64,000 nucleotides of DNA from Crambe crambe (lineage: Eukaryota > Porifera > Demospongiae > Poecilosclerida > Crambeidae): assembly GCA_963924555.1 (NCBI GenBank), contig OZ004584.1:3471001-3535000 (forward strand), written 5' to 3'. Shown here piece after piece: positions 22,820 through 50,599 of the stretch (position 1 is the stretch's first letter; every line of letters begins with the position of its first letter). Made by a program: the position numbers and the translations under genes. The notes beneath the pieces were generated by a model. The model saw only the letters and a list, made by a program, of their open reading frames with translations. It did no database searches and was not told the DNA's origin.

Positions 22820-25800
22820 ATGTCACTCCGTGATCCTGAAGCACTAAGAAATTGTTGTGAAGCATTAAGGAATCGTTGTGAACGGTTGAAACTTGAAGAC
22901 CCATTACTACAGTGGGGTGACAAATTCGTGGAGCTGGAAGAGTGTTCACTAAATTACCAAATATCATTCAAAAATGCCTGGAAAGTCAGTATTCGATTAA
23001 TAACTAACATACTAACACCATCTCAGCATTTTGCTTTAGCTAAAGTATTATGTATCAAATTTACCAGGCTATAGAACATGGAAATCTAAGAAGATTAAAA
23101 GACTCTATTGAAAACATGAAGGAATATGCTAACACCCATCCAGGTGACAGGAAATACCTTGATGTCTGTTATCTCCAGAATGAAATGTCACTTAGTGGAC
23201 GAAAACGTACCTTCTATTTCATGGGCTTATTGGCATATGCTGCTGTTCGCGGTCGGAAGAACATGGTAGAAGAATTGATACTCAGTAAAGCAAGTATGTA
23301 TAAGGACTTTTCAATCAAAATTATATATTTATTCATGCAATGATTGCAGGTCCTGAAATGGGGGATTGTCTTTCAGGTTCACCACTAACACAGATACTGG
23401 TGTATGCTCTTCATCATAATTGCTCTGAAGTGATTAATACTGAAATTGTTCAGCTTTTGATTGGAACTAATCTTAACATCAACATCTTGTACCTCATGTA
23501 AGTAACTAGCTACTCCAATAATATGAATGAACTAAATCCAGTCATAGGTGAAAAGTCACATAATTACAGTCATTTCAAAGCCATACCTTCAATATTAATT
23601 ACTTTTCTAGCAAACCATGTGGTTAGTAAGCTGATTCCCTTTTCCTATCTCATTTTATATACTTGACATACTGGTATGCATTGGTTTGCAGTGTATGGAA
23701 ATGTGACTGATTTAAATGTAGTTAGCTACTCATATTACGATTAGATAACAATAATTGCAACCTCTAGTCTGAAATAAACTGCTGAAACCAATGTGACTCC
23801 TGGCTAGCTATCAAGCTATTTTCATAATTTTCATACGTAACAGATGTGATGATAGCCATGCATGGTGTTCTCCAATTGAATTGGCCGTTTCTATCAAGAG
23901 GATGGATATTGCAAAGCAGCTTGTGATGGCAGGTGCCCATCCAATACATCCCTCTTTGGATGATGCATGTGGTGTACTGCAAGTTCTTAATGAGTTTTAT
24001 GAATTTGGGACTAATGAGTACATCTCCTGGCTCCTTCATCAGCACCTGTCATTACGGGAAATCCCCCAGTTTATTGAAGATGTAGTAAAGCTCGATATTT
24101 TCAATGAAGCAGGTGTGAGGATGTTTGATGAAGTTGGTCGTCATCCTGCACATGCACTCCTCACATGTGGCAATGAGGATATGGTCAGACGACTCTTTGA
24201 GAACCATCCTGAAATAAAAGTGAATGTAAAGGATGGAACTGGGAGGACAGCCCTTCAAATTGCTACTGAAAATGGCGATCTTGAATCTGTTATGATTCTG
24301 CTAAAATTCTATAGGTGAGACAAAAGTAGCTAGTATAATCAGTTTACACTAAGTAATAGTCCACACCATTCATTATAAAATTTTTAGGAAGCTGCAAGGA
24401 TCCAATGTTAGTTTGGATGATGAGCCTCTGGATGGAAGAGACAGGTAACACTATCTACTACTAGCGTAAACCTTTAACAATTCTATCTAAGAAGCACCAA
24501 AATGACAAGACTTCTGAGCTCAAAGTTACAATAGTAGGGTATTAAAAGTATCAGTTGAATACCTTATTCAAAGTTACTGATGTAATCATGCATGTTGCAT
24601 TTAATTTTATGTTCAGTAACAAAGATATGGAATTAGCACTGCTTACAGCAGCTAGAAAAGGTGATATCAAAATCGTGAGGTGTATTGTTGAGGAGGGTCT
24701 TCACAATGTGATCCACATCATAGATCAGGCAGTGGAAGAGGGTCTAACCACTTTATTTGAGGTAATTGATCAATCATCCTGTTCATGGAAAAGAAACCTG
24801 ATGATTGCCTTAAATGGATCATAGGGGCACTTTTATAAGTCTTATATCATGCAATGGCTGTGTACGTTTCTTTGTCAAGCTGGCAAGCTGGATCCTTAGA
24901 CTGTTGATAGTGTTTTGTTCTATGTAATACGTACTTATCTAGCTCTACCTGCACAAGAATAATTGAGGTGAACACAAGCTGAAGGCCAGTACATTACATT
25001 ACCGAGAGTATGATAGCACCATTCAAGTGAATGCATAAAGAATTTTGTGCTGATTGGGTCATACTTTCTTATGACTGACACATTTTGGGTTTCAGTGATT
25101 TTTAAAGAATGTAATTATTGATCAAGTTCAATGATAGTCAAATAAATTCTTGTTAGAAAAACATTTATAGTGCATATAAAGTGTGCTTTAGCCAAGAGAT
25201 TCAACGCACACTTTTCAGATGGTCACAAGTCATGTGACCAGCACTAAATATTTTCAGTCAAGGACCATGTTCTGGCTTGGATAAACTGAGCTCACCCTCA
25301 TCCCATTATGCTTTTAGCTATAATGAGATGTGGGAACTACAATGGGGAAGTGAGAAGCTTTTAAAGTCTTGCTAGTTTGGCATATAGCTAAATCAATTCA
25401 ATTCTCCATTACAAAATTATCCTCAAGATTTCCTCTTAAAACCCACCTATGACTAAAAGTACCAAACAATAATGTAGAACATTATACTAGGCTTTTGAGC
25501 AATTTTAGAATCTCACTCCCCATTTTTAGGGCTAGCTATAACACGGAACTTGTACTTTTTTGCTGCATAGGTTCTGCGTGATTATCAATATCTATATGCT
25601 CTGCTGAAAAGAGGCAACACTCTGGTTCACACTGTTGCCCTCAATGGAAATTCAAAATTATTCAAGGTAATTGCTAGCACATTAATATTATGATGCAAAT
25701 AGTTTTGTTTTTGTTTTGTATTATAGTATATATGTTTGTTTATTCATTTGTTCATTTTTTTCGTTCGTTTCTTGTCTAGTTGTTTGTTCATTAGTTTCAA

Positions 25801-28800: not shown

Positions 28801-30535
28801 TTCTCCTGAAGTGGCTAGAAAATATAATCATGGTATTATTTGTTCAACAAACAGGTACCAGTATTGCAATGGGATTTACAAATAACACCACAAATAATAC
28901 AGGTTAGCATAGATGAGCAATAAAGTTGTAACTGCATGTGCTGCTACCTTTTAATGCAGATGTCACATGTGAAGGTAAGTATATTTTTGTAGCTACATAC
29001 AAGCTAATTTATACTAATATGTAGGTACAGGAAAGACTGAGGGTCAGATGAGGTTCCTTGTCATTTCTGCAGTGATTGTAATGCTTATCAGCATTTTTTA
29101 TCTGCTGCTGGAAATCTACCAGATATACCAACGTAGATTTAAAAAATACTTCACAGATCCTCAGAACTATTTTCAAGTGGTTACATATGTATGTGTGATC
29201 ATATTCGTGTTCCCTCTGGGCCATAAATGTTGGTGCTACCCTTCATGGAAGTGGCAGATTGGAGCTTTGGCCATTTTTCTGACATGGGTTAATAACCTTC
29301 TTCTGCTCAAACACATTCCACATATTGGCAAGCCTGTCACCATGCTCTTCAATGTTTACCTTAACTTCATCTTGCTGATCTACCTCCCTATCTTACTGAT
29401 ATTAACCTTTGCCTTCCCTTTTTATATGTTGTTTGTTGCAACACTCAAGGTTTGTAAATTTATATAGCTACACATAGCACCAGTTTACAGTTTCTTGGAG
29501 AGATTGTTATTCCCACTCTTCAGAGAAATAAATGCTCTAATGATAGGCAGAACTGAGCATTCTGTAATGGATCAGCTAGTTGCTGGGAATAACAGCATAA
29601 TTATGGGCACTAAAGTATGCAGTCATGCAATATCAAGGGCATAAAGCTCACCCACTACACATATAGCTATTGGCAAACTAGCCTTTAGGCTGCCAAACAT
29701 AATGGTGCCCAAATATCAATTGTTGTTCCCATACCAAAAATAGTAACTATTTGTTAATTTGCAGGAGAACAGTGAAATGGCCTTGATTCATTTCCCCACT
29801 CCTTTTCATGCAATGTGGAGTGTGATTATACAAACAGTTGATGGTCCTGATACCGAGTTCTTAATGCAATCACTTCCTCATCAAGTAATGACGTACACAC
29901 TTTTTATTACTTTCATTGTCACTGTGCTCATTCTCTTCAACAACTTCCTTGTAAGTGCAATGTAGTGCAAGTGTAGGTGCAATGCAGCTTGTCAGAGTCA
30001 TTATATATAAAGTAGCTAGCTACTGGACCACTTCATCTGGTGTATACGTGACTGTACTGATTCACCCTCCTCTTAGCAGTCAATTTATTGCTATAGACCG
30101 GTATGGCAGTTGGTGAAACAGAAGCAGAACGCAAAAAGGCTAAGCTCTCCCTAATTAAATCAAAGGTATACAATTTATAATATTCTTCATTATTATTATA
30201 GTATTAATGCAGGTTGATTACATATTTGAGAGTGAAGACATTTTCAGGAGATTTTTCCATGGATTCAAACCTACACTCACCATGGATGACCACAAAATAG
30301 AGCTACTTCAACAGCAAAATGGAATCATCCTTGAGGAATTGAAGGTATGTATAATTAGCCTGCCAATTGCAACTCTGCATGTCACTTATGAATGTAGTTG
30401 GAAGGAGATGTATACAAAAAGTTGGATAAGCTCCAAAATGAGATGACAGGGACTGCTAAATCATTTGGTGTTCTGGAAGGTGAAATCAAGAAAATCTTCA
30501 CTATATTAAGGGACAGTAATGCCAAAATACAATAA
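22820..30535 (+). CDS. TRPA-like ankyrin-repeat cation channel
   Basis: 22 exons join in phase to 1177 residues. Exon starts: 22820, 23068, 23350, 23844, 24388, 24617, 25571, 25893, 26187, 26719, 27178, 27631, 27787, 28287, 28508, 28855, 28960, 29025, 29765, 30097, 30213, 30398. The N-terminal two thirds is a divergent ankyrin array ('GRTALQIATENGDLESV', 'KTPLHLAIDNNN', 'DTPLSAAARSGNDDIL', 'ACVSILLKKGADITVTNDYG'). An acidic linker (DDDDDV) precedes S1 in exon 15 ('VGFPILLFSYGFHLV'), S2-S5 in exon 18, and the pore and S6 in exon 19. Exon 20 ('TGMAVGETEAER') matches the TRPA post-S6 motif. A coiled-coil C-terminus follows. It is probably a plasma-membrane sensory channel; TRPA versus a related ankyrin TRP clade is unresolved. 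Intron 13 has a GC donor, and exon 17 is only 15 bp. Confidence 0.88.
28046..28196. mobile_element. MITE copy 2 (TTTGTGTTCACTTGATACC ends)
   Basis: Left end TTTGCATTCACTTAATACC followed by TTGATCA; the right end is GGGTATCAAGTGAACACGAA. The core GTGGGTGATCAGCTCTCT matches copy 1 at 18240. It sits inside intron 13 of the TRPA-like gene, the intron with the GC donor. Confidence 0.65.
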
Positions 30536-30979: not shown

Positions 30980-31363
30980 TCAATACCTACACCTTTCAAG
31001 TACGTTTAAAGCTGCACAATAGCCATTAGCCCATTCAGGATTAATGTCGACAGCTTTTTCAGTGTCTAACAATCTATCTTCTGGTTTATAGTAGGTTAGG
31101 CTTCGGTTGCTTAGAACAGCATAGTGGGTTGGATAGTGATTTCTTAAATCTTCAAACTCTTCTATCTTCTTGTTCTCAGCTGCCATCAAGTAGCTATAAG
31201 TTCTCAGATTATTAGCTATTTTATTAACTCTAATTGCATGAGGCACTGTACCCATGCTCACTTGCTCACTCATTATTGGCTTTAGATGTAATAATGTGCT
31301 AAAATCCTCGAGTACTGGCTTTGAAGTGATCAATTGAATGCTCCTTAATTGCACTGTAGCCAT
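30980..31363 (-). pseudogene. TPR-like gene fragment
   Basis: A 127-codon minus-strand frame whose C-terminal third reads 'AVLSNRSLTYYKPED' then 'DTEKAVDINPEWANGY', a recognisable but eroded tetratricopeptide repeat. The same signature occurs intact in the TPR-CHAT gene 2.4 kb away ('IYSNRSLVSIKLKNY', 'CIKHDPQWFKGF'). The start codon is in a plausible context (ATGGCTACAG), but the TPR spacing is broken and no further exon was found. It is probably a relic of an inverted TPR gene copy. Confidence 0.45.
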
Positions 31364-32486
31364 CCTTGGAACTCAAAGTTCTTACAGGTCTCGTTGACTC
31401 CTACAACAGGAGATGTAGCTAGATAAGCCACTCAATGTTGTGCTATAATCTCATGAAATACTGTAAGACGGTTGAATCTCTTTTGCCAGCCTTTCAAGTG
31501 ACTGTAGTTGATAGTATCAACACCTTACAACAGCAAAAGAACTGTAGTCCTTGCTCACCAAACAGGCACTGTCATTCCAACTTTCAGATAACCCCCAACA
31601 GATGAGCATAGCAATGGCCCTCAGAGATGCAGACAAGTAGCTAGCTATCCTGATAAAGTTAAGCAGTATGCAATGGAGCAATTTTCAAAATGTAGCTACT
31701 CCCAAGCCAAACACAGTCGGGCTCTCATTCAACTGACAGGTTACTGTAAGGACACTTTCTGATAAGATTAGCGTGTGCATAACTATGACTCCTACTACTG
31801 GTGAAAGATAAATTCTTTCTCTCATAGGTGTTGAACTACAACAAGGGGTAGCTACTGTCCCTTAAAGAAGAACCTGCCATACTTTTGAAAGAAAGTTAGC
31901 TATAGTCACAGGTATGACAATAAGATGGAAAACCCTTTACTCAAGAGTTCAATCAATCCAATAGCATCAAATCTGATAGCACAGTTAACTCTGCACATGC
32001 TCATGGAAAGGATCAAGCCATCCTAGTCAAGTGTTCATTTCTAGCTGTGTTTCTGCCATAGAAACCTCCGTACTGCTTGATGAACTGCTGGTCCTTTGAC
32101 TGCTATTGCAACAGTTTAGAGTATCCAGTAGTTCATTTTGTTAGCTAGACTTTTCTACGACAAACTCTTTCAACTAGTCTCCGGCCCACGAGACTAAGTT
32201 TGCCCCATCAGAAGCTTTGGAAACAGAGCAACACATGAATAACTCGTACTTACAAACACTGGCTGGCTTTGTCTGCTTTGGCCATTATTTTCAGCATACC
32301 AAGCTGAATGAAAAGCACTGAAGTGCTAACCCTCAGCGCACACTGAAAATGCTTAGTTATAGCAGGTATCGACAGATACTGAGCAGATAACTGATGAGCA
32401 GGAGATATTTAAAAGTATCATTCAATTTCTAATCATTTATAAAGCAGTTGAGCTAGCTAACATGTTTCTACTACAGAGTCCACATG
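31364..32486. other. Intergenic, no gene recognised
   Basis: Frequent stops on both strands and no domain found. It separates the TPR fragment from the inverted-repeat element at 32496. Confidence 0.4.
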
Positions 32487-33737: not shown

Positions 33738-36700
33738 ATGGCTGTAAAGCTCAAAGAAGAGGGCAACAAACTGTACAAAGAAGGTAACTTTATTGAAGCC
33801 CATAAGAAGTATTCACAAGCTCTGAAGCATGACTCAACCAACTCAGTGATTTACAGCAATCGAAGTCTTGTGTCCATTAAGCTCAAAAACTATGAATGTG
33901 CCTTATCCGATGCTGTTGAATGTATTAAACATGATCCACAGTGGTTCAAAGGATTTTTGAGAAAAGCTGTCGCATTGGAAGGATTGGGTAAACATAATGA
34001 AGTTAAGCAGAATGCTATTGAGGGTTTTCGATTGTGTAATGAAGGGCGCTTCAAAAAAGAATTGGTCTCTCTCTGGTTCAAGGCAAATAAGACACTAAAT
34101 GACCTACCAAAAGGATCAATTGAGCTCCCTAGGGGTATTATTATAATGTCACAAGACTACCTTCACGTTCTGGCATGCCTTATGCAATCTTTGAGTGGAG
34201 AATGTCCCCTCAGTCTCTCTCTGACTCAGCAGTGCTTGTTTAGTAGTGCTAAGCAAATTGAGATGCTTTTGCTAGATTTTGGTGAATGTAGCTCTCCAAT
34301 TGTTAAAGAATGGGCTAAGTATTTACCAAATGAAGTATATCCATATAGCATTAATCCAATGGAAAAGGCAAGATTAGAGCAAGAAATGAAATCAAGGAGT
34401 AAAGCACTCATTCAATTTCTGAACAAAGAAGTTGATCCAACTCTCTACCCATTACTTAGACCAGTTATGGGACTTGTGATATTAATTATCATAAATCGTA
34501 CAAACATCTTGACAGAGTGTAACACAGGGCATCATGCTGTTGAACTGATGAATCAAGCACTCCTCCCACTATTTGAGACATCTATTCTCTCAACTGATGA
34601 ATATTACAACATGTATATTGGACGTTTATGTGCTGTGGTTGATTCCTTCATAGGTCGAGGATACAAACTTGATCATAAAGAGTTCGTGGCTGTGAAAGCC
34701 TACTCCAAAAGACTTGAGGAAGCCATTCAAAAATATCCAAAGCATTTGCCAGAGTATCATAAAGATAAACAGCTTGCTGAAAGGGCCTTGAGCAATGTAA
34801 AGAACAATATACTTGAGCCAGCTGGACTCTCTCCACCAAAAATTCCATCAAGTTCTCCCATGAGTGTTGAAATGGCAGAACAGATTGTGAAAGAAAGACC
34901 ACATGATGCAAAAGCCTACATTGTAAAACGCCTTCAAGATTTAGAAGCTGCAAAATTTCTCACAATGGGAGAAGTTGAAGAACTTCTCACCATGACAGGT
35001 TGGTATCATGTTAAATATAAATGGGGCAAGTGAAGCGTCCACATTAAGTACATCCCAACATTGCAATTTATTTTAGCAATGACCTTTGGGTAAACTGAGC
35101 ATCCATGCTCACCCCACATTATTTCTGCATGTTGGCAGTTCAGATTTCAAATGAGGCAATGTGAAACAATAGCTGCTATGAATGTGAAAAAATTATGGAA
35201 TAGTGTCCAATATAAGATACTGAGCAATTCAGTGGGTGCTTGTATTAAGTTTGCTTGAAAACATAGCCATCATGTAGATATACTATGTAGCATGCGAATA
35301 TTCTGGGCCTTGAGTATTTCAGTACTTTATTATGCTGGCATCAGCAACTAGGCCCACTTATAGGTGCTTGCTGCTCTGACTCCCTTTGTTAAGCTCACCT
35401 TGCTAATGAGCTTATTTTGATTTTGATAAGCTTACCAATGTGTTTCTGCATGAACCACCCTTAACAAATAACACCTAGCCAAAACAACAGACTTTTTTAT
35501 TAATTTATCTTTCACAAATACATAGCTATATCAGATCTATAGGTAGTTGGAGGGGTGCAGGATGCCATTATGTAACTATAATTTTACAGGTATTTTTCTT
35601 ACATTGGGAGATGAAGATGCTGCTCTGAAGGTATTTATCAAGGGTGAACAAGCTTTCTTTCATGTGTTTGGTCAGATGCTACGTTTGAATACTCTAAAAC
35701 TTGATCAATGCCCAGCAGTAATTGCCCCAATGCGTCAATTGGTACTCAATCAAGCTTCAATGTTAAAAGTGCCAGAACTCTTTGCTGATGTAATACTTAG
35801 ATGGAAATGTTTATTCAAAGAGCTTCGTATGCAGTTGATGCATTTTAGTTCTGGAAGTATTTTTAGTGCATTCTATCAGTGGTACATGAAGCAGTTGACA
35901 ACACCTCATGCACCAAATGCAGAAGATACAGAAGCTGCCCTTCTCAAACAAATGCAGGAAGAAGAAAGTCTACTGCAAACATATGCGGAGTCAACATTAG
36001 CAACAATGTCCAAAGCAACCTATCCACTTATGTGGAAGTGTCTCCCACATGGAGTTGTTACTATCGATTATATTTTCTTTGCTCCATTGAAGGAAAACCC
36101 ACTACTGGAGGCTTACTGTGTGATCTCGGAGGGTAATGCAATCCCTCTAGTGTGCAAGTTGAATTATAAAACCATCCACAACCAAGCAGCATTATTTACC
36201 AAATTAATGTCTCGGGCTTTGGAAAATCAAAAAGTAGTCAATGCAGAATTCACCCTTCTTGCAAAATTAATATTCCCTCAGTGTTTAGTTGATATCTTAA
36301 CATCGAGAAGCATTACACACTTTTACATTAGCCCAGATAGTGATATCGTTCGCATCCCTTTTGACTTGTTGCCAGTGTACATTGACTCATCTTATGTTAC
36401 CCTTCATGAGAAGTTCTCTGTCAGTATTCTACCATCAATGAGAACACTCTTTTCATATTGCAAAGAAGGAGCTCTCAGCCAAGTGTGCTCTATCTTTGGA
36501 AACCCGAATTTTGACCTTCGTAAGCCAGCTACTGGATCATCAGCCTTTGAAAAACTTATAAACCACTTCTGTGAATATTTCGGCATTTCTTCTTCAACAT
36601 ATACTACTTTGGAACAGCTAACACACTCGCAGGATGAGGTAGACTTCATTTCACTCCAACTGGAGTCACATGGATTGAATGTTCAGAAATTCTTTGGTGA

Positions 36701-37271
36701 TCAAGCAGTACTTTCTCACGTTTTGTCCCTTGAAAGTCCAATGCTCCTTCACATTTCCTCTCATGCCTACAGTGGAACCATGCAGAAAATTTCAGCTTTT
36801 CGTGGAAACTTCTTTGATGACCTAAACTCTTCTGCTATTGCTCTTGCAGGGTTCAACACTTTCTCAGGAGGGCATTTTGATCAGCTTCCATCTGACTGTG
36901 GGCCTGCTCAACTTCCACCACTAGCAATATTTTCAATAAAGCTTAGAGGTACCAAACTGGTGTACTTATCAACATGTGACTCTGCTTCTGGAACAGCACC
37001 AATGCAAGAAGCAGTGGATAACCTTGCTGAAGCATTCCTTGTAGCTGGTGCAGAGACAGTGATTGCTACACTTTGGCCTGTTTGCGATGAAGTGGCAGCT
37101 GAATTTAGCAAAGTATTCTATGAGAGGCTTACTAGTCCAGGTGTTCAACCATCCCAAGCTCTTGCTCATGCCAAGCAATACTTTAGAATGCTTGATAGTA
37201 CTAGTCATATGCACTGGCCAAGCTATGCTGTTTTTGTATGCTATGGATTAGACAAGCCATTTCTATCTTGA
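33738..37271 (+). CDS. TPR-CHAT caspase-like protein
   Basis: Two exons (33738-34998 and 35590-37271, phase 1 intron with GT-AG) give 980 residues. Residues 1-110 are TPRs of the co-chaperone type ('KEEGNKLYKEGNFIEAHKKY', 'VIYSNRSLVSIKLKNYECAL'). A long helical middle follows, and about residues 640-980 form a CHAT domain. The putative dyad is present: His812 in 'LLHISSHAYSG' (CAT 36762-36764) and Cys883 in 'LVYLSTCDSASG' (TGT 36975-36977), with the typical C-terminal 'VIATLWPVCDE' and 'HWPSYAVFVCYG'. CHAT proteases are caspase/separase relatives, and in bacteria TPR-CHAT proteins cleave partner proteins in immunity. The substrate here is unknown. It is a cytosolic protein with no signal peptide or membrane helix. 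Both exons are fully open. Confidence 0.9.
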
Positions 37272-37951: not shown

Positions 37952-40900
37952 CTACAGAACAATATGGTCTCTGAACATATACAATGTAGAAATTAGAAGT
38001 ATAAGTATCAGGACAATAACCAGTTTAAATTTGCTTCTTAACATTCTGTAGCATGCTTGTTGAACCATTTTGGGACATGACTGTCTTCTTTGGGGCTTTG
38101 AAAAGGAAGCTGCAAGAAATGTATACAAATCAGTATAATTAGACAGAGTGGAGGGAAAGGGATCACTTGCCTGTGCGGAATTTGGCAACTGATACCGGCT
38201 GGCTCCCTCTGCCTGAGTGTATAGGGACTGTATATTTTCCTATCTTGATGGATGTAATATGTCCCCAGTATAAAAAGGCCTTCATATTGGTGTTTGTCAT
38301 ACTGCTCCTCAGTAATGTAGCGATTGTATTAGGAATTGCCCATGTTACAGTGAGAATGCTTGGTGTAATGGTCTTCAATATCAAGGCATACTTTGGAATA
38401 GAGAATTTCAAAGCAATACTCCCTGCCAATCTATCTAATTCTTCAAGTGTGTAAACCTTGCAGTACTGATGCAATCCGACGTTAAAGTCCGAAAAATCTT
38501 CTAGTAAGTTCCTGTTTATCACAATGGAGTATGTAGAAAAATCAGAGAGGCATATGTTCCTTCGAAATTCTGCAATTTTTTTCAAGTAATCCTCCAGACT
38601 CATTTTTAAGTATTGATCACCTAACTCATTCACCAACTTCTCAAAGAGAATGTAGTTTTTAAAGTCCCAAAATGTAGTCAGTCTAAGCCATACACTGTCA
38701 ATGTTTGAATCTCTGTCGATCTTACAATAGATTTTCTCAAAGCCCTGTAGCTTAGAAAGGTAAGCTCGGAGGTCAGTGATAGTAATCTGCCTTCCTAAGA
38801 TCATATTTAAAAAATATTCTTCCATTTCAGCAAATTTGTCTTCCAGTGCACTGATGTTCCCTTGCATAGTATCTGCAAGGGGGATATACAATAACCATGA
38901 CAACATGCATGTGTGATGATATAAGTCAAGGCTTCATCTTTATACTTCTTACCTTTTGTTTACTAACAAAACATTACAATTTCACTAGGAAAAGGATACC
39001 AGAGTCGAGATGACCCAGCATGCTCCTTATACTTAAACATAAGAATTCAGTGAATATTAACTTCTGAAACTTCATGTACAGACATTTTAGCAGATCATAA
39101 ATACACTGAAATTGCATTTCATATTCAAAATAATGGGGATGTGGATAATGAAGATAATACTTACACTACAGAAAAATTAGGCTACACAATGACTACATTC
39201 TAAGCATACGTCTGTACCATTTACAGCATCCAGGTCCAACTAAACCTAGTAAGTAAGAAGCTACTCACATTCCATAGGCCATTTATACATAGTAGTTAAA
39301 TAATTATTAGTGCTAAACATTTCAAAGGTGGTTATAATCAAGAGTGTATTCCTTCATAATGTACAGCATAGGCTCTGTCTGCACATGTCTGGATACTCCA
39401 TTAAAATAAATAATACATTTTGCAGTTTCTGGCAAAAGAGGGATAATCACGATCACTCTATGCATGAAGGGTGGTCAAATGTCCACGGCAACATGTATAT
39501 AGGGATAACTACATCATTTGACAATGTAATACCTTCAATCCCAACTGTATAAAAAGAAAACTACAGTTATCATAAGAGTAACAAGTTACCTGTATCAATA
39601 TTATCAGACATGGAGTGCAATTTATTTGAATCCACACCATCAGATGAACAGTCCAATTCACTATCATCAACAGACACCTTGAGTATTCCTTGTAGTTTAC
39701 AAAATACTTTTATGTCAATACGATTCATATTTTCTTTCAGTGATACAGCAACTGTGGCAGGTGTGACCCATGTGATGCTGATGCAACCTCGCTTAATATC
39801 TTTTACTTGGAAAAAGTATGAAGGTAGAAAAAGTTTGCGAGCTATGCTTTCCCTGGAGTTTTCCAAGTCTTCAAGTGTGCACTTGTCCCACTGCTTATCT
39901 AACTTTATAACAACATCTTTGAGGTGTTCCTTTGATAAAGACTCATTGATTTGTCTAATATATTCAGAGAAGTCACAGAGACGTGTTTTAGATCGGAAAA
40001 TTTTCATCTGTTTCTTAAATTCTGAAAAATCTCTCTTTAAGGTGTTATCACCAAATTTTTTTACTAGGCTTTCAAGAAGAGAGTAATTAAGGAAATTGCA
40101 ATAAATATTAAGTTTTGTCCAGATATCTCCCAAAGTTGGATTATTCAAATTTTCCATCAGAGAAGATAAAAAATCCTTGTGTAGTTGTTTATTTCTAACA
40201 GGAATGCTTGAAAGGCGAGCTTTAAACATGTCCACACTGATATTTTCCATCTCGATAATTGCAAAAGTACGATCACATAAATCAAGGAAATAATTCTCCA
40301 ATTTTGATGCATCTGGCATGACTGTTGCTGCTACAGCAAAAAAAATTTAAAACCATAAGAGCCCTATATAAACTGTTTCTTTCCATGTGAGCATACCTGT
40401 GGGACCAGGATTGATCCCGTGAGAGTTGCTAGTGGCAGTTAGGGGATCCTTGAGTAAAGGAGAGGTAAGACTGATGCAACAGCTATACCGGCCTCCATGT
40501 GACATGCTAAGGGATGGGAATGAGAGAGTGGACGAAGAAAACTCATCCAAGGTAACTCCATCTCGTTGCCATTGGTAAGTGATGGTTGGACGAAATTGTT
40601 CGGCTCCTCTAACATGACAAGTCATTGAATAACTTTCATCTAATGTGGCTACATTTCTTCCCTGCACTTCCACAGAGAGGGAAGGTGCTACACAGAAAGA
40701 GTATAATAATGTAGGACATTTACAATACCACTAAACAGGTTACATATCTGGAAATTTTTTCTGAGTATAAAAGTCAATCTTCATCTAGGCTTCTAACTTG
40801 CTAGGTTTTGATCATGTAAAAATTTATTAAGAGATAAGAGGAAAAGGGTCTTGACATAGCTGATGCAGTGGTCTACTGAACTCGGGATATACACACATAT

Positions 40901-43900
40901 GGTATTGTATTAGACCTGCTGTAAGAGAAACACCATTCCAGCAGATCAACAAAATTAACACAAAGATACGCCAACAATACTAAATAAAGTGTTGCTAGTG
41001 CATGAATAATATGGTAGTTATGAATTTATATGGATTGCCACCATCTTATAACCCATTCATTCACATAATACCTGGTAGGTAGATAGAGTTTTGTTTTGCT
41101 ATCTTGAATGCTAAACCTTCATGGCCAACAACTTGCTGTGTAAGAGCTTGCACTAGCCTCTCCCATGAAGGTTGAGGGTCAATCATTTTCAGCCATGCCT
41201 TCAACATTGCACTGTAGCACTCCAAAGTAGTGGAGTAATCCTTTCTTATTCCATCCAATTTTGTCAAACTGACTCCTAACTGGACTCCAAGGTTATACCA
41301 CTCATTTTGAGCTTCAGCAAGGAGTGATTGAACATGACGAAAGTTAGAAATATTCAGTTCATCTGCATTAAAAAAATCACATGTACACAGTGTCAGAAAT
41401 CATGCAACCAGGGTGTAGAGCTGCCATAATTATAGCTAGGCTAATTCTTGACTTCATTATACCAACTACATGTACAAGGCCTTTTTTATTGTAAACCACA
41501 AATTTCTCATGTAACTGACAGAATATGTTGATGAAATACTCTATTATAAATACCTTGAGGTCACTTAAGGTTAAAGTTTAGTTTTTGTTTTTTTTTACTT
41601 CAAAATGAAAATTCGTAACCTGAGTTTATTGAGGTGCTGGGAAATTTTTGAATTGTCCAATTGTTCATATAATAATTCATGCTAGACAAGAAAATTTTTT
41701 TTCTATAATAACCAGTTGACGTATGTGGGTGTAAGTTTATTCAGTTTGATACCACATAGCAGCTGCAGTATGAATTATAGGCTTTGCTTCAAGCCAGCAT
41801 CATCTCTCCCTGACCTAAAAAGGTTAACTCTCGCTTCATTTTTGGAGAAAAGATCAGTCCAGGGCTGCTGATAAAGCTGTAACAGAAGTAAGTCAACAGT
41901 CACATCCCTTCATGCCAAAACAACAAGCCTCTATAACAAGGTATGTTACCGTAAATATCTCTATTGCTGTGGCTGAGAGCTAGCTACATGCACCAGCACA
42001 ATCATATTCAATGCCTGTGGTCTAAAAAAATCAATCTACAAAAAAAAATCTCCCACTATACAGTAAACCTTAGAATAATTCAAATAGCATTAGGCCCATG
42101 CACTGACTATCAAGGCATTTATGAGTCATAATTAAAATATGAATAGCTACATTAAATACCTATTAATAAAAGTTAAGAGCTATAACAGTTTTGCATTATA
42201 CTGTGCTCACATGGGGGCCCAGGATTGGTTTCCACGTCTCCGGAGAGGTAGAGGAGATATGGTATTACAAATATGAGGAAAGCAACACAAAACCACCAGC
42301 AACCCAACTTCAAACTCCCTCTATCATGCAAGATAAGACTGTACATAGGAACCTGTATAATAACATAGGAGATCCTTATTTCAAATATAGAGCAAGCATA
42401 GAATGTGTTGCTAGAAACTACTAAGCTGATTGGTCAGGTACTTAGGTATCAATAACTCAGGTACCTGGAGACTTTAGCTGTGTTTAGATTTGATGCATCA
42501 TTAGGTACCTGAATAAATTGAGAGAAAAAAATTGATTCAGATCTTTATCTCTTTTATGGATCGAAGCTAAGCTTCTGGAAAGTTCAGACAGCTGACTTGA
42601 AGACCCTTCATAGTCAAACTCAGCGCCACCAGTGGAAATATCACCTTCATTAATATGAAGCTACTGGCATTCAGCTCTATTGACATAACTTTAGAACAGA
42701 GATGTGCAGAATAGACCGATTTGATTGGTCAATTACAGAGGACACTAAGCTTAGTACCACTTGGTCTCAGGGCATAGAGCTACTAAGTTTAGTGCTCGTT
42801 GTCATAGATTGATAGCGTTGCTTAGAAATGGTAGGTTGCTATACCAATTGAAGAGCCAAAAATTACTACCAAAGTGAGAAAAAAAAAGATTAATTAGGTT
42901 ACTCCATAGCTCCATCACTTCAACTGTAAGAAGTGCAAGAACTCCTCCAAGGAAGGGCTAAGAACAAGCCTACCCCTGGTAGTCGGTGAAAAAAAAACTT
43001 CCAGCTCAGGAGGTGTGGCAGAAAAAAGCATCTATATGGCCAGAACGCATCAATTAGAAAGAATACGGTAGCTATGTTCTAAATTAGTTAGACACTTCTA
43101 CCATCGGGATCTAAGAAACCCTCAGCCCTGTAGTAGTGCCTTTGCTGCACTTGGGCGGGTTCTATGTAATAACAGCATTTATAGCTACCCACACCATACT
43201 GGGGCTATTTTTGGTAGGTATTTTGGTAGTCAATAGTGGCTCACCAAAGATATTTGATCCACAAGAGTTGGGCGTGGCAGGCACCTGAAAAACATAGCCG
43301 ACCCTTTACCATATTTCCCTACTAGTTCGAGTGGTAAAGGGTAGATCCGTCCATGGAGTTTTCTGTTTTCTCTGTGACGCGTACGCGCACGCGTCGACGA
43401 TCGACGCGACGCGACGTGGATCTGGAAAGGGTCGGCCTAGTGAACGTGCTAGGGTACCGGGTACGGGTAGCTCTGGCGGGGGGATACTCGTACACTTAAG
43501 GATACCGGCGACCGCTGCTGGTAAGTGCAGGACAGTAAGAAGACAACATTCAGCAGGTACCTACCCCTATCCTTCGTGAACAATCCTGCAGCGATTGGTG
43601 CAGAAAGAACCTGCCAGATCGACGGAGGGAGTGTGTAAACCGACCTGCCACACAGAGGTAGTATCCGAACAATGTGGTCAATAAACGGACGGTCAGGATA
43701 AATGATTATTTTATGAATTAAAAAATCCAAAAAAAATTTTTTTAGACTGAAGAATTAACTAGCAAGTAGTACAGTTAGTCCATAAGATAATATTCACAGA
43801 AATATATACCAAATATCGTTTACACACGTTCCACAGTACCAGTCCATGGTGCTGATACTGCTATAATCATCAGGAGATACATTGGTGCATTCTGCATGGT

Positions 43901-46699
43901 ACCACTATCATAAATGTCACATGAAAACCACAGAGCATCACCTGAGTCAGATTCATCTATACCACAAGCAGGACAGGTATAATTGCTTTGCTGCTCTGGA
44001 AGAGAAGCGCATTCAAAAGCAGAGAGAAAAGGAGGAGCGGAAAATTCAGCGACAGAAAGAACAGGAAGAGACGTATTCGGAAGCAGGAAGAAAAGGAAGC
44101 AAGAGAAGAGAGGAAACTCCAGAAACAGAAGCAAGGGGCAGGATGTCCCCAACAGCAGAGGAGCGGCAGAAGGAAGACTCCAAAGCAGACTGCCGTTCTT
44201 TTCTCATCCTTTTCTCAGCTTCAGCCTCTACTTTGTCCTGTATTCGCTTCTCCATCTGAAGTATTGCTGTGTCACCAGAAAGATGATGTGGCAATAGTGG
44301 TGTAGATCGAATTTTCTTACGAGCAATCGACTTAGGAAGGGCTAGAGTTAGCTTAAAAACATCCTCATAACTGGTATCATCTGTATTATCATCACTATCA
44401 TCTTCATTCTCTTCATCATTATCACTTCCACTATCCAAATCATTAGTTGCTGTCACAACATTCTTACTAACAGAACACACCTCACTAGTGGTATCTTCTA
44501 TTGTAAGTGCCTTGAGTTGACACCATACTGCATAAAATTCATCACCTTCCACATCATACCCCTCCTCATACCTGCGCTCAAATTTCTTGGAGGTTTCAGC
44601 TGACACGACTGACTCTAATATTTCCATTGCCTTATCTGAAGACACCACGTCCTTCCCGTCCTTGCTCTTGCTCTTGACAGAAGCTTCCTTGTCTTCGTAC
44701 ACAGTAGCTGGTGCAAGTTTACTTTGCCGAACAGCATTTGGATCTACAGGCCATATTCCAGCACCCTGAAAAGCATTAACCACTGTTGATAATTTTACAG
44801 CATCCAACCATGCTTCTTTAAAAATTCTAGCAAAGGTATATTTAGTGATGCTCAGTCCTACATTTTCCAAAGCATATTTAGAAACAGCTTTCTTCCAAGA
44901 ACTCTTCAGCGGGCCATAAAAACCCACATCCAATGGTTGTGTAACATGTGAGGTATGGGAAGGTAGACAGTAAAGAAGAATATTATTTTTTTTTACATAA
45001 TTTTGAAGTGTCTATGTTAATGTGGGACTTATGACCGTCAATTAGAAGTACAATAGGTCGGATTGTTGCAGTGCGTGGAATAAAATGCTCCTTCAACCAG
45101 TCGTAATAAAGTTCAGTGTTCATCCAACCAGAGTCAGATCTACCAAAATAAGCATTGGGGACACAGTCTTTCATTGGGTCATTTTTAAACCGTTTCCCAG
45201 CAAATATATGCATTGGTGGCACCATACTTCCCGCCGCACTAAAGGTACACAAGGTGGTAATTTGCTCTTTACTATTACTAGTAACCTGATAGATGTCTTT
45301 GGTACCTCTCATAGCAAGCACTCTTCCAGATTTGGGGCATAAAGGACAACCTGTCTCATCAGCATTCCATATCTTATCAGGATCCTCTATGTCATTATCC
45401 TTTAAAAACTTTTCAAAATCACTATACCATTTATTTAGTCTTTGTGGATTACAACAAGAAGCTCTTGCAATTTGTAGCTGTTCGGGAGAGTGAAGAGATA
45501 TGTCAGGGTGACGTCGTAGGAATGCATACCACCAATCTCGTCCAGGTCGATTATCAACAAATGGGGTTCTTCTACCATCCTTGTCCAGTATAGTCTTGAC
45601 TATCTCCAGTACTTGTTCACGAGTACGCCCGTAACCAATATTAGACATATTTATGGCCCACACGGCCAACATAGTCTCCTCAGCTTCAGATAAGACAGTG
45701 GGAGGTCCTTGTTTGAATCCTTTCACTTTACCCGAATAATGGTCATGGAGGGTACTCTTGGGTATGCCATAATGTTGGGAAGCATCCCTTAAAGACATCC
45801 CCCCCTCTTTAATCATGAGCAGAGCAGACTGCAAACTATCAGTCTTACTCTGAGAAGCCATAACCTAAACAAGTAACAAGTATGTAGTTAAGTAAACAGT
45901 GGTTACTAATGGCCATTGTACTGTTTGTACTACTGTCTGGAATAAGCCAGATTAGTGTACTTTCCAAAAAAAATCATTAAAAATAGGTGATAAGTCAAAA
46001 TATTCTCAGTTTTAGCACTCTACGTTAGCTAGTTCTGATCTAGAAGTAAAGCGCCTTTGATAGCAATCACGGGAACTTGCCATGTTTGGGGGAGGGTCTA
46101 CAAGTATGAAGTATTTCTCCCGTGCAAACACAAGCATGCAACTTTACAAACTAGCTTACAAAGCTCAACTGCAGGATATTTATGAACTGCATAGTAAAAT
46201 TTTTGCTTATACTTCAATATGGCAGCTGTGTGCAGTAACATGCAATCTTATCCAATGGGTCTATGTAAGCGAACAGTCAAGTAGCTACAATCAATCCACA
46301 GAGCTGTGATACTTGACCTTACAAAAATGCAAGTGCCACATACAATTATATGTACAACCATAATTTCTTTCCCTATTTGTGTTTGGACTCATTTGCATAC
46401 ACATATTATGAACAAAGATATTCACTGACCTTTTTGTTTTTCTGCAAACTTTCGTATCCTGTCTGCTATATCAAACTTTTTATACACATCAAGCCTATCT
46501 ATAAGCTTCCTCCAGGATGCGTACGGATCCTTTAGTATCCAGTGCCGGATGACAGTTGTCAGTCTTTCTCTGTCCGTGGAGCATTCTGATGCTATGGCAT
46601 CACACTTGGAGGAAGGGACACGTAAGTAGCGGTAACCAAAATCCCTCCATGGAATAGTCTCCAAGACCGCCACAACATTGTTCACAGTGAGAGGAGGAC
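37952..46699 (-). CDS. DD-DD-Ig-X-X-membrane-anchor protein (5' exon not found)
   Basis: Six exons in transcription order: 46699-46430 (DD1, 'RLTTVIRHWILKD', 'SWRKLIDRLDVY'), 41362-41072 (DD2, 'EWYNLGVQLGVS', 'PSWERLVQALT'), 40687-40397 (Ig: Cys in 'YSMTCHV', 'YQWQRDGV', 'GGRYSCCI'), 40330-39590 (module X1), 38872-38171 (X2), 38109-37952 (basic stretch then helix 'LVIVLILILLISTLYMF', ending HIVL). Every internal junction is phase 1, so each exon is a movable unit. With no signal peptide seen and a C-terminal hydrophobic helix, it may be tail-anchored with all domains cytosolic. The last intron has a GC donor. Linking DD1 across the 5-kb transposon-bearing intron rests on phase and domain similarity only; it could belong to another gene. 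Confidence 0.65.
38171..38872 (-). other. Module X2, second copy of an unnamed 230-residue domain
   Basis: A single exon of 702 bases (phase 1-1). It aligns by eye with X1: 'WLRLTTFWDFKNYILFEKLV' against 'WTKLNIYCNFLNYSLLESLV', then 'LSDFSTYS' against 'LCDFSEYI', and 'SIALKFSIPKY' against 'SIARKLFLPSY', with 'TVTWAIPNT' against 'SITWVTPAT'. It is mainly helical with a beta-like end. I know of no named family; similar segments recur in sponge DD proteins by memory. Confidence 0.65.
39590..40330 (-). other. Module X1, first copy of the unnamed domain
   Basis: A 741-base exon (phase 1-1), 247 codons, fully open. It starts 'ASKLENYFLDLCDRTFA' and carries the shared motifs listed for X2. The linker after it is Ser/Asp-rich ('DDSELDCSSDGVDS'). 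The duplication of a whole symmetric exon within one gene is visible directly. Confidence 0.65.
43297..43440. repeat. Short inverted repeat with CpG-dense core
   Basis: The left end TAGCCGACCCTTTACC is matched by the right end GGAAAGGGTCGGCCTA, about 140 bp apart. Internally TGGTAAAGGGTAG also pairs with the left arm. The core at about 43376-43425 is built of CG dinucleotides (GACGCGTACGCGCACGCGTC), unlike the AT-rich surroundings. It lies next to the transposon at 43.8 kb and may be one of its ends or an independent MITE. Confidence 0.5.
43821..45861 (-). mobile_element. Pogo/jerky-type (DDE_1) transposase with PHD finger, damaged
   Basis: The ATG at 45861 opens an HTH_psq domain ('GGMSLRDASQHYGIPKSTLH') and a CENP-B-like DNA-binding part. 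A DDE_1 core follows with Asp in 'WNADETGC', 'LLIDGHKSH' and 'TQPLDVGFYG'. The frame breaks once at a nine-A run (about 44989-44997), between the second and third Asp. After an acidic segment ('SGSDNDEENEDDSDD') and 'EKRIQDKVEAEAEKRMRKE', the minus strand turns hydrophobic while the plus strand reads as a K/E/Q-rich coil, which suggests an inverted segment. The end is a PHD-like finger ('YTCPACGIDESDSG', 'LWFSCDI') that continues after a one-base shift as 'WYHAEC' and 'WYCGTC'. It sits in the intron between DD1 and DD2 of the DD-Ig gene. Confidence 0.8.
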
Positions 46700-47966: not shown

Positions 47967-50599
47967 TCAGATCCCTCCCTCACCCTTGCTAATCTCACTC
48001 CGCTGCTCCAGGATAACATGATAGATTTGGATTGTGTGGGCCGTTCTCTCGACATCCCCGTTTCTGTGAATGAGAATATTGAATCACACCAGCACCATGG
48101 GAGGGCTTTGGGGGAATGGTACTTGAACAATCACCCATGTCCATCATGGCATCATGTGGCTAATGCTCTATATGAGGAGAGGGAACATGGAGTGCTGGAA
48201 GTATTGAAGAGTCGCTTCCTTAAAGGTTGGGTTGGTCTTATGCTCTCTGATAATAGTTGACTGCATATGAGCCTTCTTTCTAATTAGGTTGGTATAATCT
48301 CTTCCTGTGGTCTTACTCCATAGTGCATGCACTGATAGAGTTGATGATCCAGAATTTTTGATGTGTTTAATTATTAGGAGTAACATTCAACTTTTGAGGG
48401 GTTAAGAATAAGTTTGACTCTCGTGGATCCTTTTTGGCCATCAATGAAATCTGTCTTTATGACCACCAGCATTTAAATTTCTGTGATTTATTTGCTTGTT
48501 TTTATTTTCATTTTAATTTCAGGTTCATCTGAGTCATGTAGATTGTATAAAGGCAATGACAGAAGGATTCGTCAAAGCAGAAATCAATAAGATAGTGCTC
48601 TATGGAGCTGCAAGTCCAGCTCCATTGATCTGTTTGTCGGCAACCCTCCAAGACAGATTAGGAGAAGCACTCCTATAGCTGCTCGTCCAATTACCATGTG
48701 CCATGTTGACATCACCTCCAAGGAGTGGAAGAAACTTCCTCCAGAGGAAAGAAAACAATTTTTAGCCAGAGCCATCGCTACTCACTTTCCACCTGATGGC
48801 ACCAAGACCACTGACTGTTTTGATTTAGCTAAAGGTTCTGATTCTGATGAGGATTCTGACACTGGTGATCGTAATAATGCTGGACATGATTGAAATCCTC
48901 AAGTTCACCCAGTTTCTCTCTCCGGTCCAACACCCACTAGAAAATCCAGGAAAATATCTAAGCCAAAGAGAAAAAGCTCACTACCATCCATTTCCACACA
49001 TGATGAACTAGTAAAGCTGATGGATGAGTGTTTTGAGTCAGGTAAAACCTTACCCACTTTTCGAAAAATACATCTAATAGACTCTGGGGGACAACCACAA
49101 TTCCACGAGGTTCTACCCATATTTCTTCGTCACATGTCATTGTACATATTCGTGTTCAAGCTGTCAGAAGAGCTTGCCACCAAGCCTATGGTGGAGTATT
49201 TCAATCACAGTGGGCAAAGTATGGGAACCCCTTACCAATCAGCCCAGTCCAATGAGCAGCTGTTAAAGCACTGTCTCCGTGCCATGCACACCCATAGATC
49301 CAAGTCTGAAAGTGAATGTTCCAAAATCATGATTGTGGGAACCTACAGGGATAAAGAACATCACTGCAAAAGTGAAACACGAGAGGAGAAGAACAAGAAG
49401 TTAGCAGATATACTTCTCCCAGCTTTCAAGGATGAAATCATCTACTACAACCTGCCAGAGGATAAGTTGATCTTTCCAATCAATGCCAGAGAACCAGATG
49501 AATCCGATAAAGGCATAGCTAGGGATATTCAAAATTCAATCCTGACAGAGTGTAAGCCTAATGATATAGATGTGCCTCTTCAGTATTTCTCTTTAGAGAT
49601 ACTTCTTGAAGAAGTGAGTCTTTCTCTAGATAGAGGTGTACTGAGCAAAGAAGAATGCCTTAAAGCAGCAAAGGATCTTTACTTTGATGAGCACACACTC
49701 GATGCAGCTATCCAGTTTCTAGATGAGATATCAGTAGTCTTTTATTTCCCTGAGATTCTAGAGGGTGTTGTATTCACCAATCCTCAGGTCCTCTTGGACA
49801 AGGTAACAGAGTTGGTAGAGAAGATTTACTGCTTGAGAGGAAATGGTAGGAACCGAATTCATGGACTTTCTGGAATCTGGCAGAAGTTCAGAGACCATGG
49901 CATTGTTAGCTTAGAACTTCTCGAAAGAGAAGAATTTAACAAGCATTATGTACCTGAAGTCTTTACTGCTGTAGATCTGATCAAGCTCTTCAGAGAGTTG
50001 CTCATCATAGCAGACTATAATGCTTCTGAATACATCATGCCTGCTCTCCTTCCTGTCCTTGAAGAGGAGAAAGTTCATGAGCATCGTGTGCCTGATGATT
50101 CCATTTTAGCTCCCTTTGCCCTATCCTTCCCTCTTGGAGGGCCTTGTCTCAGCACCTACTGCAGTCTGACATGCTTCTTAGTCTCCCCTGATAATAGACC
50201 GAATCCATGGAAAATCACACTTCTCCCTCGCTCCAACACTCCGGCTTGCCTCACTCGAAACTGTACCATGTTTTCTGTTCCTGGTTTCCCTGGCTCTGTT
50301 ACACTCATAGACACATTTGCACACTTTGAAATCCATGTGCACACATCCCAGATATCACACCTCAAAATGTGTTCTTTTGTGTCTCGAGCCGTATTTGCAG
50401 GTGTGAAGAGAGCAATGATGGTCCTTGGCTACAATGACTCCATCCCATCAAAAGCACTGCTCTGTCCATGCGGTGGTGGTGATCCTCATGTCGCTACATT
50501 TGGAGATAAAGAATGGATCTGTACTCACTATCCAAATGGCTGACCTCTAGACAATCACCATGGTGTGAACAAGATAATTCCACTAAAAGTGGTATGTCC

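Follow-up and report, generated by a model that had tools for sequence, protein, structure and literature searches.

Gene W and its neighbourhood

The window analysed here, a stretch of 64,000 nucleotides of the Crambe crambe genome (C6:3471001-3535000, on a contig of 9.08 Mb in an assembly of 143.1 Mb and 119 contigs), contains a gene, termed W, whose source frames at 33738-35033 (+) and 35547-37271 (+) join into a product of 980 amino acids (Table 1; all positions are those of the window unless a contig or locus is named). The preliminary description had proposed two exons, 980 residues, N-terminal TPRs and a CHAT domain, and this structure is borne out by the frames, by a GT-AG intron and by Pfam; its assignment of the product to the TPR-CHAT family was likewise right. 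A TAG stop stands immediately 5' of the ATG. Fourteen splice pairs preserve the open frame of W, and the pair used (CAG/GTTGGT ... TTTTACAG/GT) was chosen on site quality and on likeness to the paralogues A, B and C. In all three of these the best-looking intron lies at the site found in W and in phase 1, when all phases are scanned (open splice pairs of any phase: four in A, four in B and ten in C). Since the best-looking introns agree across W, A, B and C, and given the dN/dS ratios of the near copies described below, the family is considered to represent real genes. Bacterial contamination, considered as a source of W, is ruled out by the intron, by the 9.08-Mb contig and by a GC content matching the rest of the window, and is also countered by the presence of six family loci across contigs C6 and C8.

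Table 1. Features of gene W and of the adjoining reverse-strand pieces, in window coordinates.
Feature	Position	Strand	Basis
Exon 1 of TPR-CHAT gene W (residues 1-420 and first base of codon 421)	33738-34998	+	ATG-opened frame; donor CAG/GTTGGT
HOP-like TPR domain, residues ~2-106, clamp K6, N10, N41, K71, R75	33741-34055	+	HOP TPR1 1elw, E 2.6e-16
Middle region of gene W, residues ~107-420	34056-34998	+	22-28% identity to three paralogues
Single intron of gene W, phase 1, GT-AG	34999-35589	+	Splice-pair scan and paralogue agreement
Exon 2 of gene W (rest of codon 421 to residue 980 and stop)	35590-37271	+	Open frame
CHAT domain of W, residues ~644-973	36258-37247	+	PF12770 E 2.9e-37; own-family-free profile 103.8 bits
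His812 codon (SSH-A; second His of HISSHAYSG)	36762-36764	+	H in 39/39 aligned CHATs
Cys883 codon (LSTC-DS; YLSTCDSASG)	36975-36977	+	C in 39/39 aligned CHATs
Repeated module of ~250 aa, copy 2	38166-38933	-	Copy beside W
Repeated module of ~250 aa, copy 1	39573-40346	-	Genome-wide matches
Ig domain	40347-40730	-	E 1.1e-7
Death-domain exon	41064-41399	-	Pfam E 3.3e-6; 3.8 kb downstream of W end

Downstream of W, pieces on the reverse strand (37955-41399) converge on the gene, the last frame containing a hydrophobic stretch. A Death-domain gene beside W had been noted previously and is confirmed by the exon listed in Table 1; the genome-wide Death search, in which 150 of 965 candidates were scored, does not list this exon. 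Genome-wide, with 147 of 218 candidates scored, copy 1 of the repeated module finds at least 143 matches including its own, and the module has no Pfam match above cut-off. It may resemble the TRADD-N-like units described in Amphimedon (PMC8195603). The genome holds many Death-domain, NLR-type and TRADD-N-like frames. On contig C16 the module is found a few hundred bases after Death domains, while at locus L066 (1503-4499, +) it heads a NACHT-LRR (NLR-type) frame situated ~3.7 kb from the outermost exon-1 match of paralogue E. Many long module-bearing frames cluster on contig C10. The module nearest to W is 1.0 kb away; among the matches listed, all are more than 80 kb from A, B and C/D. Modules within 5 kb of two of the five loci would be expected with a chance of ~0.002 (two or more, under an even spread), but this figure is post hoc and the modules are clustered. 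The module neighbourhood offers a clue to a possible immune role and does not demonstrate one.

Elsewhere in the window, two overlapping frames at 44049-45864 (-) are like a Pogo/Tigger DDE transposase (HTH_psq, Tc5 HTH and DDE_1), a Roc-COR-like frame is found at 48894-50540 (+; COR-A E 1.5e-5, under the Pfam cut-off), and ankyrin-repeat and ion-transport-protein frames are located at 23797-24315 (+) and 29018-29464 (+).

The TPR and CHAT domains of W

Among single-domain solved structures, the N-terminus of W (~residues 4-106) is best matched by TPR1 of HOP (1elw), which is outscored by the full HOP chain 7kw7 because several domains are summed in the latter. Residues 4-99 align gap-free to HOP TPR1, and the five clamp residues of W (Table 1) align with the identical HOP residues K8, N12, N43, K73 and R77, which we take to be the carboxylate clamp gripping the EEVD tail of Hsp70 and Hsp90. 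Co-chaperones form most of the best 60 of 70 structure matches, for example PP5, CHIP, SGT, UNC-45 and TOM70, which are carboxylate-clamp TPR proteins. Pfam recognizes one TPR above cut-off (residues 6-35, E 6e-8) and weaker ones inside residues 3-73. The TPRs of the preliminary description are thus present, while their HOP-like clamp type, apparent from 1elw and the five identical residues, had been missed; a clamp-type TPR in place of a TPR array changes the likely mechanism.

Paralogues A, B and C share the clamp set except that Arg replaces the K71 of W (K, N, N, R, R), and the best match of exon 1 of A is also HOP. With K or R allowed at the fourth place, the spacing of the five residues recurs in A, B and C as well as W, and in the piece of the first exon of D. 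A scan of the frames 120 aa or longer from the window and the retrieved loci (115,764 residues) gave no further fit; loci overlap in this set, and part of the bacterial loci carried a flank of 1.5 kb only. As to the ligand, the last genomic HSP90 match ends at C13:5411596, and the in-frame tail beyond one stop ends in MEEVD followed by a stop. This single stop is apparently part of an intron, so that the HSP90 would end in MEEVD. Clamp-like TPRs are able to bind other tails; docking of the W TPR on the EEVD tail of Hsp70 or Hsp90 is nonetheless a well supported prediction and the best-supported functional step.

The CHAT domain of W scores 129.1 bits against PF12770, for which the curated cut-off is 24. 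Against a profile of 31 CHATs devoid of the family of W (27 bacterial and four other host domains, without L025, L029, L035 and L050) the score was 103.8 bits, whereas 200 shuffled versions of W reached at most 3.8. The columns of His812 and Cys883 hold H and C throughout an alignment of 39 CHAT domains composed of 31 bacterial and four other host sequences together with W, A, C and D, which bears out the dyad put forward earlier as intact. The bacterial set, L024 and 30 loci taken from the best matches, consists mostly of top Pfam scorers and is a sample of good CHATs. Following the catalytic His, these have Gly (20/31), Ala (8/31) or Ser (3/31), and the Ala found in W is therefore no sign of loss. 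His and Cys lie 71 residues apart in W and 68-69 apart in its paralogues A, C and D; the four other host CHATs span 47-67, and all but one of the 31 bacterial domains 39-52 (77 in the exception). The earlier statement that the dyad is spaced as in caspase-fold CHAT proteases thus holds roughly, the spacing in W being longer than in nearly all bacterial domains and than the 43 residues of Csx29 (PMC10028731). In the motifs around the dyad, W differs from those common to A, C and D (THG to SHA, GTGELT to GPAQLP) and has diverged furthest among the four family members analysed. The domain is predicted from its sequence to be a cysteine protease, and its activity to be proteolysis.

The fold was approached with sequence profiles and structure models. 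A profile of eight host CHATs matched, over the Cys segment, entry 8rot (title DdvA; E 2.8e-6), Csx29 entries (E 0.34-0.61) and separase (E 0.73-0.96). AlphaFold models were poor (mean pLDDT 42.1 for the whole of exon 2 and 41.8 for the CHAT core, both from four-row alignments). When the poor CHAT-core model was submitted to Foldseek, the first match was the SAVED-CHAT structure 8tl0 (E 6.1e-3), and ten of the first 11 rows were CHAT, Craspase, DdvA or separase, the other being a sperm axoneme; none of the 550 matches had E <= 0.001 and TM-scores were ~0.2. The weak sequence matches and the weak Foldseek matches of a poor model hint at a fold of the CHAT/separase type. The middle region, which is 22-28% identical to that of three paralogues, gave nothing convincing against solved structures, the best match being a designed helical repeat (E 0.0047).

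The family of W in the genome

PF12770 matches occur in at least 11 places in the genome, and six of these loci make up the family of W: W, A and B on contig C6, and C, D and E on contig C8. A and B are near copies, differing by 15 changes in 999 codons (dN/dS 0.41), and may have arisen by recent duplication in the genome or through duplication in the assembly; the two loci (L012 and L013) lie 137 kb apart. Between D and E, exon 2 shows 50 changes in 599 codons (dN/dS 0.51). The changes behind these ratios are few, one of the two pairs contains copies that are broken, and substitution is saturated wherever W is compared. Exon 1 of D appears to be frameshifted, and in the DNA fetched for E the likeness to W within exon 1 is confined to a short piece. 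With six loci, at least two of them broken, W belongs to a small set of genes undergoing duplication and does not stand alone. Exon 2 of W is 27-29% identical to that of its relatives. C and D are arranged head to head on C8. The same arrangement with respect to W is seen for a frame at 30983-31372 (-) in the window, which weakly resembles members of the clamp family in its TPR (E 6e-4 to 0.003), has no Pfam match, and is possibly a decayed relative.

The other CHAT loci L016, L017 and L018 carry TPR arrays, with several TPR families above cut-off, and BLAST matches between W and the other host CHAT frames fall within the CHAT region only. The PF12770 match at L011 contains two internal TGA codons. 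In the phylogenetic tree W groups with A, C and D (100/99) and has the longest end branch of the four (1.5), while L016-L019 group together (87/92) with L019 as a near neighbour of L018. A single clade uniting the family of W with the other host CHATs was not rejected (p-AU 0.136 with four, 0.236 with three), in a set that leaves aside L025, L029, L035 and L050 as well as human TTC28. Relatives of the clamp family were not found in the genome-contig and viral-contig collections, searched with a few degenerate patterns each. Queries built from the other CHATs of the genome retrieved one bacterial locus and none in viral contigs, and bacterial-type CHAT queries repeatedly retrieved the same two viral contigs (none for A5).

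Proposed function and comparison with known systems

We consider there to be an even chance that W is a chaperone-docked intracellular CHAT cysteine protease put to use in stress or defence. The first step of such a mechanism, binding of the HOP-like TPR to the EEVD tail of a cytosolic chaperone, is the one well supported by the sequence. Docking may then bring the middle region and CHAT domain of W close to complexes of chaperone and client, where a change in either of these, conveyed by the middle region, would align His812 and Cys883. This proposed switch is likened to that of Csx29, in which the TPR switches the CHAT domain. Once active, the CHAT domain would cut one or a few specific partners, with a stress or defence outcome. 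A part in cell death or defence, as suggested in the preliminary description, would follow from the gene neighbourhood only. A wider and tentative proposal, which we would sooner expect to fail than to hold, is that early animals possess a separate class of caspase-clan proteases, in which a clamp-targeted CHAT domain rides on Hsp70 or Hsp90, reads the state of the client and cuts either clients or a partner; the clients may perhaps be NLR-type receptors, given the module beside two of the loci.

The same docking is compatible with a scaffold, in which the TPR of W binds Hsp70 or Hsp90 while its CHAT domain is an inactive adaptor or regulator and the paralogues are the active members. The divergence of W in the motifs around the dyad and its long end branch are consistent with this. 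We find it unlikely, as an unused domain would not be expected to keep both catalytic residues at such low exon 2 identity, and as the His-Ala pair also occurs in the bacterial CHATs noted above. Comparably improbable is an immune sensor akin to Csx29 or to the fungal proteases, in which the TPR and middle region would read infection or allorecognition and the CHAT domain would cut an executioner such as a gasdermin-like protein, with something other than the chaperone as main partner. Precedents exist in the cleavage of Csx30 by Csx29 (PMC10028731) and in the activation of a gasdermin by a fungal TPR-bearing CHAT protease (PMC12881547). The Death-domain exon and the two module copies adjoining W, the module heading the NACHT-LRR frame near copy E, and a weak resemblance of the Cys segment to the PADLOC defence protein model BovA (E 3.9e-5) point in the same direction. 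Against it, the TPR of W is of the short clamp type and not a long array, the neighbourhood pattern is post hoc and seen at two of five loci, and a Pfam gasdermin search gave no match, the control being equally silent.

We hold it to be very improbable that W serves a house-keeping purpose, for instance in cytokinesis, as an ordinary animal TPR-CHAT protein of the TTC28-like kind. Such a class is known in animals (PMC12314368, PMC9145168), and the p-AU values leave room for a single clade with the other host CHATs; yet the TPR of W belongs to a different class, W, A, C and D form a strongly supported clade of their own, and the BLAST likeness to the other host frames is confined to the CHAT region. 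The broken-looking kin, with the apparent frameshift in D and the short exon 1 match of E, would fit W as a decaying duplicate without function, which is the least credible of the readings considered here: W, though anciently diverged, has an uninterrupted frame of 980 codons and retains a start, plausible splice sites, the dyad and the clamp. On balance, the chaperone-docked protease is the reading that we prefer.

TPR-CHAT proteins are already known as a kind from bacteria, from corals and other animals, and from fungi. What appears newly recognised is a co-chaperone-type TPR joined to a predicted CHAT protease domain, in a small family of its own; no description of a carboxylate-clamp TPR combined with CHAT was found in the open-licence literature, in which an absence carries little weight. 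We know of no substrate for any animal CHAT protein, although these are numerous in some lineages. With its predictable docking partner, the EEVD tail of Hsp70 or Hsp90, and its short protein, W offers an unusually testable entry to the animal CHATs. The combination suggests a protease acting on the protein-folding machinery of the cell and, if true, would mean that the caspase clan and the chaperone system are connected in an early animal.

Among the known systems, Csx29 is like W in having TPRs before a caspase-fold CHAT domain with a His-Cys dyad (H615/C658) and in its weak profile and Foldseek matches, and it is activated allosterically through the TPR (PMC10028731). It differs in its eight TPRs and in its partner Cas7-11 according to the same source, W having a short clamp TPR and another middle region, and exon 2 of W alone reaches 16.7 bits against the Csx29 model NF041237 (NCBIfam), below its cut-off of 300. 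TTC28-like TPR-CHATs share with W their animal origin and a TPR followed by one C-terminal CHAT domain, and are described as having long TPR stretches (PMC12314368), whereas W is without a long array. TPR-CHAT genes number hundreds in corals and one or two in most other animals, human TTC28 being a putative homologue (PMC12314368); a TTC28-like expansion is reported in Montipora (PMC9145168), and coral TPR proteins carry CHAT (PMC6208414). The long-array CHAT genes of the present genome (L016-L018) resemble W in the CHAT region only. The gasdermin-activating protease of fungi is, like W, a eukaryotic TPR-bearing CHAT protein (PMC12881547). The match of BovA to the Cys segment of W covers 58 residues of a 720-position model. 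Separase shares the caspase-clan fold predicted for W and matched weakly, over the Cys segment, the profile of eight host CHATs. The closest likeness of the N-terminus is to the TPR1 of HOP/STI1 and to the co-chaperone TPRs of PP5, CHIP, SGTA, UNC-45 and TOM70, with the clamp residues identical to those of HOP, and to our knowledge none of these proteins has a CHAT domain. The same clamp design is joined to a phosphatase in PP5 and to a ubiquitin ligase in CHIP, and a clamp-targeted CHAT protein such as W would, if the wider proposal is true, be their proteolytic counterpart.
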